DNA of 64,000 nt from Negativibacillus massiliensis (GTDB taxonomy: Bacteria > Bacillota > Clostridia > Oscillospirales > Ruminococcaceae): the NCBI RefSeq assembly GCF_900148495.1, contig NZ_FTRU01000008.1, forward strand, positions 1,550,001 to 1,614,000, given 5' to 3'. Made by a program: the position numbers and the translations under genes. Numbering within the stretch: position 1 is the first letter of the stretch; each line of letters begins with the position of its first letter. Positions 33,461 to 40,945 of this stretch are shown piece after piece. Below the pieces are notes generated by a model. That model was not told the origin of the DNA and made no database searches. It saw only the letters and a list, made by a program, of their open reading frames with translations.

Positions 33461-33808
33461 ATGAAACTGGAAGTAAAAAACCTGAAAATTGAAATCTATA
33501 CCCCACCCCAGTATGTCATTGAGCTGCGCGACGCCTTAAACCAGATTGGAGCCTGCCATGTCGGAAATTATGATCACGTCATCTCCTTTCAGAACAGCAA
33601 AGGCTGCTGGCGTCCTCTGGAAGGAAGCAACCCTTTTTCCGGCGAGGTCGGTAAAATCAGTCAGGATGAAGAAATCAAGATGGAACTGTACTGCCCGGCA
33701 GAACTTGCGAAGAAGGCTGTGCAGGTAATCAAAAACATCCATCCGTACGAAGAACCCGTCATCAACCTGATTCCACTGATCGACCCGTCCGATCTTGCAG
33801 AGCTATAA
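33461..33808 (+). CDS. YqfO NIF3/CutA-type (PII-like) domain protein
   Basis: A 115-residue protein made only of the PII/CutA-like trimeric domain found inserted in YqfO (NIF3 family). Typical are YVIELRDALNQIGACHVGNYD, GCWRPLEGSNPFSGEVG and the terminal IHPYEEPVINLIPL. The family fold suggests metal or nucleotide binding, but no function is proven. ATG at 33461 follows aaggga. It is 43 bp upstream of the selenoprotein-like methyltransferase and probably shares its transcript. Confidence 0.82.
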   Translation: MKLEVKNLKIEIYTPPQYVIELRDALNQIGACHVGNYDHVISFQNSKGCWRPLEGSNPFSGEVGKISQDEEIKMELYCPAELAKKAVQVIKNIHPYEEPVINLIPLIDPSDLAEL

Positions 33809-33851: not shown

Positions 33852-34613
33852 ATGAATAATAAAACCGATTTTGTTCGCCAAAGCTATTCCGATATTGCAC
33901 AGGGCAAGGAGGATACCATCCTGTTTGCTTCGCAGGATGAACAGACTGTCAGCTCCAGTATTGGCTATTCCGAAGAGGAGATCAGCCTTGTTCCAGAAAA
34001 AGCAAATATGGGACTTGGCTGCGGAAATCCATTTCATATCGTTCCAGTCAAAGAAGGCGACACCCTCATTGACCTTGGCAGCGGCGCTGGTTTTGACTGT
34101 TTTCTTGCTTCCCACAAAGTTGGCAGAAGAGGCAAGGTAATCGGTGTCGATATGACACCGGAGATGCTCTCCCTTTCCCGCCAGATTGCAAAAGAAAACC
34201 GCTACCGAAATGTGGAATTTCGCTTGGGAGAGATCGAAAATCTTCCAGCTGCAGATAACCTTGCCGATGTTGTTATCTCAAACTGTGTGATCAATCTTTC
34301 GCAGAACAAGGCCCGCGTATACCGCGAGATTCTTCGCGTATTAAAACCGGGCGGCAGCATTGGGATTTCCGATATTGTCATCATGAAAGAACTCCCAAAA
34401 GAAATCAAGCAGGATGATAAAATGTATGCCTGCTGAGTGTCGGGTGCTTCTTCGGTCGAAGAACTCGAAAAAATTGTCCGCATGGCTGGATTCTGTGATA
34501 TCTCCATCCGTACCGAACCGGTTTCCAAGGAGTATGAAGAAAAGTGGGGCGGCGAACTTACCGTTGGGCAGTATATTCTTTCTGCCAAAGTATTTGCAAG
34601 AAAACCACAGTAA
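33852..34613 (+). CDS. arsM: ArsM-type arsenite methyltransferase, probable selenoprotein (in-frame TGA = Sec195)
   Basis: A 253-residue SAM-dependent methyltransferase read through an in-frame TGA at 34434-34436. SAM motif IDLGSGAGFDCFLA (73-86). The three ArsM arsenic-binding positions are C57 (GLGCGNP), C145 (ISNCVINL) and position 195 in YAC-U-VSGA, where relatives have Cys. The frame continues 58 codons in good ArsM style (EELEKIVRMAGF) to a TAA. Directly 3' of the TGA is a hairpin TTCTTC-GGTC-GAAGAA (34448-34463), whose position and G-rich loop fit a bacterial SECIS element. If not decoded as Sec, translation would end at 194 residues. The adjacent C194-U195 pair is notable. ArsM assignment strong; Sec decoding likely. 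Confidence 0.8.
34437..34463 (+). promoter_or_regulatory. Putative bacterial SECIS element
   Basis: A 6-bp stem TTCTTC/GAAGAA with a GGTC loop, extended below by G-C pairs around a bulged C. The loop starts 17 bases after the TGA and begins with GG. The E. coli formate dehydrogenase SECIS also shows a GGUC in its loop. Confidence 0.7.
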
Positions 34614-34743: not shown

Positions 34744-36252
34744 ATGAGAATTGTGACATCCAAACAGATGAAACAAATCGAGCAAAACTCGATTCAATAC
34801 CAGATGAGCTATCTGCGCCTGATGGAAAACGCCGGATGCGCTGCTGCTCAGTTTATTGCACAGACCCTGCATGACGTAAATGGATTAAACTGCGTTGTCT
34901 TCAGCGGAAAAGGCAATAATGGCGGTGACGGATTTGTTGTTGCCCGAAAATTAAGCGAACTTGGTGCCAATGTCACCATCGTCCTGACTGACGGAGAACC
35001 AAAAACTGATGACGCTGCAAAGATGCTGCACATTGCCCGCATGATGGAACTGACTGTCCTCTCCTTCGAGGATGATCTGGAACTGGTAAACTCTGCTTTA
35101 GCTGACGTTGACGTCATTATCGATGCTGTATTTGGCAGTGGATTCCACGGAGAAATGGACGTTCGTCGCCGTCAGGTCTGCTCAATGATCAACTCCGCGA
35201 TCGCAGCAGTATTTTCGCTGGATATCCCAAGCGGCGTTAACTGTGATACCGGAGAAGCTGCTCAGGATGCAGTTCAGGCTGACTTTACCATCGCCTTTGA
35301 CAGCTACAAGCCTGCACATATGCTTCCGAAATATCTTCCAAATCTCGGACAGGTTACCCTCGCTCCAATCGGAATTGATCCTCTTTCCTATGTGGACGTC
35401 GAACAGAATCACTTTGTCACCGACGATGAATTTGTTTACTCCAAAATCCCGGTCAAAGAGGATAATGCTCACAAAACCTCTACCGGGAAATTGCTCAATA
35501 TCGCGGGCGGCGTTGGCTGCACCGGTGCGGCCATTCTTTCCTCCACTGCTGCTTTGAGAAGCGGTGCCGGTTATGTGGTTACTGCGGTTCCGCAGGCAAT
35601 TTATCCTATCGTTGCTCCAAGTCTGGTACAGTCCCCATTCTGCTTTATCGAGAATGCTTCGGACGTTGCCAGTGCCTTAAACGGCGTTTCGGCTGTTTCC
35701 ATCGGCTGCGGCATGGGAACCGGTCAGCGCCAGCGCGGCATTTTGGAAGAGGTTCTTTATCTTGCAAAATGTCCTGTTATTATTGATGCAGACGGCATAA
35801 ACAACCTTGCTATGGACATATCCATAGTAGCGGATGCAAAATGTCCTGTTGTTCTGACCCCGCACTTTGGAGAAATGGCAAGAATTTGCCAGACTTCGGT
35901 CAGCGAGATTCAAAAAGCACCGCTGCTGTGCGCACAGGAACTGGCTGCCCAGTTAAAGGCAACCATCGTTTTAAAGGGCGCACACACCATCATCGCTTCG
36001 GCAGATGGTCGTACCTTCATCAATCAGACCGGAAATCCCGGACTTGCAAAAGCTGGAAGCGGCGATGTTTTAACCGGAATCCTCGCTTCGCTCATCTCTC
36101 AGGGAATGCAGCCGTTTGATGCCGCTGTCAGTGCGGTTTATCTGCACGGTGCTGCTGCTGATCGATGTGTAGAACGGATGTCCGAGTACTTCATGCAGCC
36201 GGATGATATTCTCATTGATCTGGGCAGACTTTTTAAGGAACATATTCGATAA
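34744..36252 (+). CDS. nnr: Bifunctional NAD(P)H-hydrate epimerase / ADP-dependent dehydratase
   Basis: A 502-residue fusion that repairs hydrated NAD(P)H. The N-terminal YjeF epimerase domain (1-215) has GNNGGDGFVVARKL and the IDAVFGSGFHG motif. The C-terminal ribokinase-like dehydratase (about 225-500) has GCTGAAILSSTAALRSGAGYV, VLTPHFGEMAR and the catalytic AKAGSGDVLTGILA. Length is normal for the fusion. Confidence 0.96.
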   Translation: MRIVTSKQMKQIEQNSIQYQMSYLRLMENAGCAAAQFIAQTLHDVNGLNCVVFSGKGNNGGDGFVVARKLSELGANVTIVLTDGEPKTDDAAKMLHIARMMELTVLSFEDDLELVNSALADVDVIIDAVFGSGFHGEMDVRRRQVCSMINSAIAAVFSLDIPSGVNCDTGEAAQDAVQADFTIAFDSYKPAHMLPKYLPNLGQVTLAPIGIDPLSYVDVEQNHFVTDDEFVYSKIPVKEDNAHKTSTGKLLNIAGGVGCTGAAILSSTAALRSGAGYVVTAVPQAIYPIVAPSLVQSPFCFIENASDVASALNGVSAVSIGCGMGTGQRQRGILEEVLYLAKCPVIIDADGINNLAMDISIVADAKCPVVLTPHFGEMARICQTSVSEIQKAPLLCAQELAAQLKATIVLKGAHTIIASADGRTFINQTGNPGLAKAGSGDVLTGILASLISQGMQPFDAAVSAVYLHGAAADRCVERMSEYFMQPDDILIDLGRLFKEHIR

Positions 36253-38541: not shown

Positions 38542-38784
38542 ATGTCCTCTTCTGCAACTTTACCACTTTCCAAACTTCGAGAAGGCCAGAAAGGACAGGT
38601 ATCTGACCTGCTTCTTTCTGGTGAAATGCGCCGCCGCTTACAGGATCTTGGTCTCATTCCCGGGACCTGTGTTTCATGTCTTTATCAAAGTGCTTTCGGT
38701 GATCCCTGTGCCTACTCTGTCCGCGGAGCCGCTATCGCTCTGCGGCAAACCGATTCCCAAAAAATTCTAATCAAACTATGCTGA
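38542..38784 (+). CDS. feoA: FeoA-family ferrous iron transport protein
   Basis: An 80-residue SH3-like FeoA protein (LREGQKGQVSDLLLSGEMRRRLQDLGLIPGT, ending SVRGAAIALRQTDSQKILIKL). It supports FeoB in Fe2+ uptake. It lies 22 bp upstream of feoB with SD aaaaggag. A TAGAAT about 65 bp upstream may be a -10 but has no good -35. Confidence 0.92.
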   Translation: MSSSATLPLSKLREGQKGQVSDLLLSGEMRRRLQDLGLIPGTCVSCLYQSAFGDPCAYSVRGAAIALRQTDSQKILIKLC

Positions 38785-38806
38785 TGATGCTGAAAGGATT
38801 TTTACT

Positions 38807-40945
38807 ATGGGACTTACATTCGACTCAACTGGAGGTTCTGCTGCCTGCTCTGCTCGTGAGCTGTCGATTCAAAAAGAAGAACCAGACGATCTGATTATCG
38901 CCCTCGCTGGAAATCCCAACGTCGGCAAAAGCACTATCTTTAATGCCTTGACCGGAATGCACCAGCACACTGGAAACTGGCCTGGAAAAACCGTTTCCAA
39001 TGCCTGTGGACGATGCGAATATCATGGCCAGGGATACCTTTTTGTCGATCTGCCTGGCACCTACTCCATCATGGCCCATTCCCCGGAAGAGGTCGTTGCA
39101 AGGGATTTTATCTGCTTTGGAAAAAGCGATGCTGCCGTCGTTGTCTGCGATGCGACCTGTCTGGAACGAAACCTCAATCTGGTTCTGCAGGTGCTGGAAA
39201 TCACGCCTAAAACCATTCTCTGCTTAAATTTGATGGATGAAGCAAAAAAGAAGAAGATTTATATTGACACAAATCTTCTTTCCAAAAAACTGGGAATCCC
39301 TGTTATCCAAACGACTGCCCGGGACAAAAAAGGATTGGAAAATCTGCTGGAAACTATCCTCGTGGTTGCAAAAAATCCTGCTCCCAATATAAACACTACC
39401 CCCGCACCACTTCCAAGGGATATTGAGAATGTTCTATCCTCCCTGTGTCAGTCACTGGAGCCTGTTTTGCCGCCTCATCTTCCGGTAAGATGGACCGCAC
39501 TGCGCTTACTTTGTCCTGATTCCCAGATTATAGAACACCTTACCGACCAAAACGGCATTCCCCTGACAGAAAACAGCCAGATTAACTCTCAGATTTCCTC
39601 TGCTCTTGATACATTACATCAGGCGGGTTACACCGACCAATCACTTCGAGACAAAATCGTTTTTTCCCTGGTTCATCGTGCAGAGCAAATCTGCTCTGCC
39701 TGCGTTTTTACTGCTCCCAACTCCTCTCGTGAGTTTGACCGCAAGCTGGACCACATCTTTCTCAGTCCTAAAACAGGGATACCGGTTATGCTGCTTCTGC
39801 TCTTTCTGGTATTCTGGCTCACCATCACCGGAGCAAACTATCCTTCCGCTTTACTCTCAAACCTCCTGTTCTGGTTTCAGGAAAGGCTCAGCGACTTTTT
39901 TGTCTTTTTGCACGCTCCTCAGTGGCTTCATGATATGCTGGTCCTGGGTGTTTACCGTGTCCTTGCCTGGGTCGTTTCGGTTATGCTCCCGCCAATGGCG
40001 ATTTTTTTCCCTCTCTTTACCCTGCTGGAAGACTTTGGCTATCTTCCACGCGTTGCATTTAATCTGGATCACTGTTTTCAAAAAGCAAATGCCTGCGGCA
40101 AACAGGCACTAACTATGTGTATGGGATTTGGCTGCAACGCTGCCGGTGTTGTTGGATGCCGCATCATCGATTCCCCCAGAGAAAGATTGATCGCCATTCT
40201 GACAAACAACCTGGTGCCCTGCAACGGAAGATTTCCCTCTCTGATTGCCCTGATTTCTATGTTTTTTGTGGTCGGTCAGGGGATATTTCATTCTTTGTTG
40301 TCCTCTGCTGCACTTACATTATGGATTCTTCTTTCGATTGGTATGACCTTTCTTTCCTCCCGATTACTTTCTCAAACCGTCCTAAAAGGGGAAGCCTCTT
40401 CCTTTGCGCTTGAGCTTCCACCCTATCGCCGCCCACAAATAGGCAAAGTAATCGTTCGCTCTGTCTTTGACAGAACTTTGTTTGTATTGGGTCGTGCTGC
40501 CGCTGTTGCCGCTCCTGCCGGACTTTTGATCTGGCTGCTTGCAAACTTCACTATTGATGGAGAAAGCCTGCTGTTCATCCTTTCCAGCTTTCTGGACCCT
40601 TTTGCTCAAGCTTTTGGAATTGATGGGGTTATCCTGCTTGCCTTTATCCTCGGATTCCCCGCAAACGAAATTGTGTTTCCTCTGATCATGATGGGGTATC
40701 TGCAAAGCAGTGTCCTGATGGAAACAGAAAATCTGACGGCACTGCACAGCCTTTTGCTTGCAAACGGCTGGACTGTACAAACTGCAATCGCAGTCACTAT
40801 CCTGTTTTTGTTTCATTGGCCCTGCTCCACCACCTGCCTGACCATATGGAAGGAAACCAAAAGTCTCAAATGGACTTCTCTTGCTTTTCTGCTCCCCACT
40901 GCAATCGGTTTTGGGTTATGTTTTGTCTTAGAGCTTATCTTTTAA
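38807..40945 (+). CDS. feoB: Ferrous iron transporter FeoB
   Basis: A 712-residue Fe2+ transporter. The N-terminal G domain has GNPNVGKST (G1), DLPGTYS (G3) and NLMDEA (G4). A helical GDI-like region follows, then the membrane part with paired gate/nucleoside-recognition domains (YLPRVAFNLD, MGFGCNAAGVVGCRIIDSPRERLIAILTN). Its TAA overlaps the stop of the convergent DUF1835 gene by 2 bases, with no terminator visible between them. Confidence 0.97.
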   Translation: MGLTFDSTGGSAACSARELSIQKEEPDDLIIALAGNPNVGKSTIFNALTGMHQHTGNWPGKTVSNACGRCEYHGQGYLFVDLPGTYSIMAHSPEEVVARDFICFGKSDAAVVVCDATCLERNLNLVLQVLEITPKTILCLNLMDEAKKKKIYIDTNLLSKKLGIPVIQTTARDKKGLENLLETILVVAKNPAPNINTTPAPLPRDIENVLSSLCQSLEPVLPPHLPVRWTALRLLCPDSQIIEHLTDQNGIPLTENSQINSQISSALDTLHQAGYTDQSLRDKIVFSLVHRAEQICSACVFTAPNSSREFDRKLDHIFLSPKTGIPVMLLLLFLVFWLTITGANYPSALLSNLLFWFQERLSDFFVFLHAPQWLHDMLVLGVYRVLAWVVSVMLPPMAIFFPLFTLLEDFGYLPRVAFNLDHCFQKANACGKQALTMCMGFGCNAAGVVGCRIIDSPRERLIAILTNNLVPCNGRFPSLIALISMFFVVGQGIFHSLLSSAALTLWILLSIGMTFLSSRLLSQTVLKGEASSFALELPPYRRPQIGKVIVRSVFDRTLFVLGRAAAVAAPAGLLIWLLANFTIDGESLLFILSSFLDPFAQAFGIDGVILLAFILGFPANEIVFPLIMMGYLQSSVLMETENLTALHSLLLANGWTVQTAIAVTILFLFHWPCSTTCLTIWKETKSLKWTSLAFLLPTAIGFGLCFVLELIF

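Follow-up and report, generated by a model that had tools for sequence, protein, structure and literature searches.

The window, a stretch of 64,000 nucleotides of the Negativibacillus massiliensis genome, contains an arsM-like gene whose reading frame is broken by a TGA, and the question raised by this locus is whether that codon ends the protein or is read as selenocysteine (Sec). The frame comprises 194 codons up to the TGA and 58 codons beyond it, up to a TAA (Table 1). Translation of the window places every feature where the original prediction had put it: the TGA at codon 195 is the sole in-frame stop, Cys57 lies in GLGCGNP, Cys145 lies in ISNCVIN, and Cys194 precedes residue 195. Any gene caller treating TGA as a stop would cut this gene to 194 residues. 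With a probability of about 0.95, we consider the product to be an arsenite S-adenosylmethionine methyltransferase (ArsM) of the selenoprotein type, in which UGA-195 specifies Sec. This reading draws on comparison of sequences, namely the frame, the family, three conserved positions, the Sec machinery, the conservation of the UGA and of a hairpin, and selection past the UGA; from these we infer Sec insertion itself, arsenic methylation by the protein and a possible role for Cys194.

Table 1. Features of the arsM gene, in window coordinates.
Feature	Position	Strand	Remarks
arsM open frame	33852..34613	+	253 aa with UGA-195 as predicted Sec; TAA stop 34611-34613
Cys57 codon	34020..34022	+	Equivalent to CmArsM Cys72 by alignment; invariant in 26-row alignment
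Cys145 codon	34284..34286	+	Equivalent to CmArsM Cys174 by alignment; also read in 26-row alignment
Cys194 codon	34431..34433	+	Immediately 5' of the predicted Sec codon
TGA codon, predicted Sec195	34434..34436	+	Equivalent to CmArsM Cys224 by alignment; motif UVSG (UxxG)
Bacterial SECIS-like hairpin TTCTTC-GGTC-GAAGAA	34448..34463	+	Stem 34448-34453 and 34458-34463, loop 34454-34457; apical loop 17 nt past UGA

The family assignment is given by the NCBIfam model NF008823 (arsenite methyltransferase), against which the protein, with Cys substituted for Sec, scores 299.6 bits (cut-off 263). Alignment of the 253-residue product with ArsM homologues, proposed in the original prediction, brings residue 195 onto Cys224 of CmArsM (4kw7/4fr0), and the three equivalences, counted by hand on the pairwise alignment, extend to Cys72 and Cys174. 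Cys72 and Cys224 are named in the PDB entry titles, and together with Cys174 we take them to be the three arsenic ligands. The AlphaFold model of the protein (26-row alignment; pLDDT 88.2, pTM 0.89) has ArsM structures as its top matches, namely 4fr0 (Z 26.0, rmsd 2.5, 211 aligned), 5evj (Z 25.3) and 6cx6 (Z 25.1), while the first other row has a Z of 22.2.

Machinery for Sec insertion is encoded in this genome of 2.88 Mb (8 contigs, completeness 99). One tRNA-Sec with anticodon TCA scores 66.4 bits, above the gathering score, and it is adjoined by genes for SelB (410 bits, cut-off 242) and SelA (611 bits, cut-off 267.9). SelD (G000:C7:203197-204120) scores 400 bits to TIGR00476 (cut-off 125) and contains one in-frame TGA, so that it is probably a selenoprotein too. 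Thus selA, selB, selC and selD, which the original prediction had named as the genes to look for, are all present. Both SelB and SelD exceed their cut-offs in all 16 genomes tested, comprising 14 with a Sec-ArsM and two congeners without one. A tRNA-Sec over the cut-off was found in 13 of 14 Sec-ArsM genomes against 5 of 15 Cys-ArsM genomes in the first sample of ArsM loci described below, where 16 of the 70 Cys loci were chosen and 15 searched, the genome of L040 being left out. The corresponding numbers in the class sample were 11/13 and 6/13, two of the latter six being marginal (49.8 bits). Pooled, these make 24/27 against 11/28 genomes (Fisher p 0.0002, kinship ignored), with only part of the first-look candidates scored in most genomes.

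The three Sec-ArsM genomes in which no tRNA-Sec over the cut-off of 47 bits was found gave the same result on repetition: G541 (147 of 147 candidates scored, best 46.7 bits), G596 (150 of 174, 46.7 bits) and G299 (150 of 205, 42.5 bits). Our guess is that assembly gaps lie behind these cases. The assembly of G596 is split into about 400 contigs and that of G541 into about 130. G299, Faecalicatena contorta ET51, which holds locus L024, has a Sec-ArsM, selD, selA and selB, but not a tRNA-Sec over the cut-off. Its three sel genes share one contig (L106, G299:C296), whose end comes about 1 kb past selB, and a gap is therefore likely there.

The aligned codon was followed in two samples of ArsM loci. 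The first comprises 84 loci, being the best 80 of at least 571 genome-contig matches plus four from the genus, so that Cys forms distant from the window ArsM are under-sampled. The class sample adds 28 loci; 27 of 391 genomes matched, that of the window included, and two of its 15 Cys loci (L137 and L138) share genomes with L129 and L131. Codon 195 is TGA in 14 of 84 and TGC or TGT in 70 of 84 loci of the first sample, and in the class sample it is TGA in 13 and a Cys codon in 15 of the 28. Over all 112 scored loci, of which the first 84 include the best 80 of at least 571 matches, 27 have TGA and 85 have Cys, as expected of a selenoprotein codon and in agreement with the claim that the TGA stands where relatives have Cys. 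Within the genus, ArsM of the window kind occurs in four of six genomes, all four with TGA (the window's own, and others at 82, 65 and 64% identity), so that close relatives carrying TGC and lacking the hairpin, which would have pointed to a nonsense mutation, were not found; of the other two genomes, G005 yields nothing better than a weak methyltransferase match (E 9e-5) and G002 none at all. In the family sample, matches at E <=1e-40 were confined to 4 of 297 genomes, all of the window's genus.

In the IQ-TREE phylogeny of the 112 rows, the 27 TGA rows form one side of a branch (support 98/88), and a single switch between Cys and Sec thus suffices; L133 and L118 sit on long branches, and their placement is unsure. 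Among the 112 scored loci (best 80 of at least 571 matches in the first sample) no TGC or TGT member without the hairpin falls inside the Sec clade. A second, divergent group of Sec-ArsMs (L118, L124, L126, L127, L128 and L133) has 36-51% identity. The subclade of the window contains rows named as Peptostreptococcaceae, Lachnospiraceae and Oscillospiraceae together with the window's genus, whose members are scattered. The genus ArsMs fall in two parts of the tree, L012 and L013 in one and L010 and L011 in the other, one part being mixed with Lachnospiraceae. That the genus members do not group together suggests horizontal transfer of arsM. Five genes flanking arsM accompany it in the congener G003 and in none of eight other loci tested, L012 and L013 among them (about 3-8 kb around the gene); this, with the split tree, perhaps points to repeated transfer of the genus arsM.

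Bacterial SECIS elements have a G among the first two loop bases and lie at a set distance from the UGA. In the window gene the loop GGTC follows this rule by its sequence just downstream of the UGA, and the spacings in the original prediction, 11 bases from the TGA to the stem and 17 to the loop, were reproduced. The hairpin occurs at this fixed place in the window gene and 20 others, i.e. in 21 of the 27 Sec loci. The RNAalifold consensus of the 14 Sec loci of the first sample adopts the register with the GGTC loop, exactly the hairpin first proposed, and the element is conserved with compensatory synonymous changes. Of its six pairs in these 14 loci four are invariant, while at pair 18-27 twelve loci have UA and two have CG, and at pair 15-30 seven have UA, three CG, two UG and two no pairing. 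The covariation score is 0.201 against 0.106 in shuffled alignments (0/500 shuffles as high), and cells altered on both sides number five against 1.3 (1/500). Two related measures do not stand out, namely pairs with a double change (2 against a shuffled mean of 1.0, 106/500) and further pair types (3 against 3.0). Pairing falls to 41.7-63.1% when the partners are shifted, against 97.6% in register. In the first sample (best 80 of at least 571 matches included) the inner five pairs all form in each of the 14 Sec loci and in 5 of the 70 Cys loci, and they are also present in seven Sec loci of the class sample (L111-L117); random synonymous recoding of Sec loci retains them about 18-21% of the time, which is the share owed to the encoded peptide by itself. 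Judged by this comparison among loci, the hairpin of the window is more than chance.

Folding energy was dropped as evidence. The 52-nt region reaches -10.5 kcal/mol (z -0.15), a value equalled or bettered by 78 of 200 shuffled sequences, and its minimum-energy structure pairs the UUCUUC repeat in another register. The six other Sec loci have hairpins of different sequence with at least six Watson-Crick pairs and a loop 17-23 nt past the UGA, e.g. TATCTTT-GGA-AAAGATA in L124 and TAACGAA-GGA-TTCGTTA in L127; each is the best hit of a scan and hence weaker evidence, and a comparable but somewhat narrower scan, set to accept five or more Watson-Crick pairs, gives a hit in 6 of the 70 Cys loci drawn from the best 80 of at least 571 matches.

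Over the 57 codons past the UGA, the window gene and its 82%-identical congener differ by 24 synonymous and nine non-synonymous changes (dN/dS 0.066), while before the UGA the synonymous sites of this pair are saturated. Other pairs among eight clade members have dN/dS of 0.05-0.28 past the UGA where it is defined, the rest being saturated. By this measure the codons past the TGA are under purifying selection.

Truncation of an ordinary Cys-containing ArsM at residue 194 by a nonsense mutation or a sequencing error is very unlikely. Its sole support is that TGA is a standard stop in table 11 and leaves a 194-aa open frame, whereas TGA at the aligned codon in 27 loci from several named families, the low dN/dS past it (0.066), the hairpin with its compensatory changes and the full Sec machinery all argue against it, and on these grounds of conservation, hairpin, selection and machinery it was rejected. 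It is also very improbable that another tRNA (e.g. that for Trp) reads the UGA, or that the UGA is a regulated stop with two products, Sec being conditional on the selenium supply. UGA recoding is selenium-dependent and rarely complete, which speaks for such a stop, and a 194-residue product would retain two of the three arsenic positions; however, loci without TGA have Cys in 85 of 85 cases and never Trp (the best 80 of at least 571 matches included), which argues against another tRNA, and the conserved SECIS-like hairpin argues against both variants.

An ArsM-fold methyltransferase acting on another substrate, such as another metalloid or a thiol, is unlikely. No arsenic gene was recognised near arsM (six neighbouring ORFs by Pfam, others by reading), and the fold is common to many methyltransferases, both of which would accord with another substrate; against it, the three arsenic positions are kept, the NF008823 cut-off is passed, and ArsM structures head the list of fold matches.

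Promoter and terminator scans around arsM gave nothing above shuffles. Directly 3' of the gene lies a YjeF-type NAD(P)H-hydrate repair enzyme (34744-36252), and a FeoA-FeoB iron transport pair is found about 4 kb downstream (38542-40945). Just upstream, a short conserved ORF (33461-33808), which is 71% identical over 108 aa in the congener G003 and has no Pfam match, may be co-transcribed with arsM.

According to the selenoprotein reading, SelB with Sec-tRNA(Sec) would bind the hairpin just past UGA-195, Sec would be inserted and translation would continue to residue 253. Cys57, Cys145 and Sec195 would then bind As(III) for methylation, with SAM as the methyl donor, and Cys194 may pair with Sec195 as a selenenylsulfide in the redox cycle.

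The cysteine pattern of the window ArsM is moderately of interest. Cysteines of the N-terminal arm were counted over the 50 residues that lead up to the GLGCGNP-type motif, in open frames with assumed start codons; one Cys row, L068, in which the motif was not found, was left out. Of the 84 Cys forms thus scored (best 80 of at least 571 matches included), all have an N-terminal Cys and 83 have a CC pair. The 27 Sec forms comprise 12 with CC, 14 with none and one (L012) whose only Cys in this region lies three residues N-terminal to the motif; with the last counted as armless, the arm is missing in 15 of 27, in two separate branches of nine rows (100/99) and six rows (100/97). A Cys directly before Sec occurs in nine of the 27 Sec forms, which are all nine members of the window's clade, and in no other, and a Cys directly before the aligned Cys in 3 of 84 scored Cys forms (from the same best 80 of at least 571). 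Each of the 12 Sec forms with CC, such as that of Clostridium magnum (L028), has the sequence YCGU and thus a Cys at -2; a Cys stands at that position in 5 of the 84 scored Cys forms (sampled as above). The vicinal Cys194-Sec195 pair noted in the original prediction therefore holds for the window protein, but is not general to Sec-ArsMs. The second armless group (L118, L124, L126-L128 and L133) has no Cys before Sec, and its hairpins are of different sequence.

As read from the sequences, this pattern is one of two arm losses and no test of function. A doubtful possibility is that Sec at the third arsenic position makes the N-terminal arm dispensable and that in the window's branch the Cys-Sec selenenylsulfide couple takes over redox or arsenic-delivery work. 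A replacement of the N-terminal di-Cys by Cys194 was downgraded from a statement of fact, six of the Sec forms without the arm being also without Cys at -1; given this second armless branch, the Cys-Sec pair would be one solution and no requirement. Loss of the arm in Sec forms, with the Cys-Sec pair in the window's branch, is perhaps new. Among titles on N-terminal cysteines, from literature searches aimed at neighbouring questions, none settled their role in bacterial ArsM. TtArsM, a distant Cys form outside the sampled loci, is described with a single Cys (PMC8649762). Forms with Sec present and the arm gone provide a natural experiment on the arm's part in arsenic methylation.

The original prediction was unsure whether a Sec-ArsM had been described, and it has. 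A table of the 2008 GOS marine survey lists, under arsenite S-adenosylmethyltransferase (PRK11873), eight Sec sequences from four samples and 245 Cys homologues, and arsM is named there among recently found selenoprotein families (PMC2398784). Sec-ArsM also appears in a table of PMC9312934, and Table 1 of a 2026 review (PMC13188914) places it under 'Experimentally verified' with the motif UxxG, citing Fomenko 2007, while the same review states of the group including arsenite methyltransferase that nearly all were found by bioinformatics and that functions are largely uncharacterised. The kind itself is thus not new; the window gene is a further, well-supported example of it, from a genome whose Sec system is complete. 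Compared at the level of family model and motif, it has in common with the known Sec-ArsM (NF008823/PRK11873 with Sec; reference protein WP_011987699.1) the family model, the single Sec, UxxG and the Sec/Cys pairing with ordinary ArsM. The window's clade differs in its Cys before Sec and its lack of the N-terminal arm, where the table entry of PMC13188914 for the known Sec-ArsM gives only UxxG.

Three multi-Sec fusion subfamilies, for which the review tabulates UxxG (PMC13188914), match the window protein in their methyltransferase part (141-155 bits) and were rejected as its family, with 155.3 of 510 bits for NF041537 (ArsM_AhpD_UU), 141.4 of 575 for NF041536 (ArsM_DUF2284_UU) and 144.8 of 460 for NF047649 (MTase_UXPK_star); their models are longer (283-459 positions), with an added C-terminal part, and contain 2-3 Sec, whereas the window protein has one UGA. 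CmArsM, CrArsM and human AS3MT (4fr0, 5evj and 8xt7) share the fold of the window protein and have longer chains. The three cysteine positions of CmArsM correspond to Cys57, Cys145 and residue 195, and CmArsM has Cys where the window protein is predicted to have Sec.
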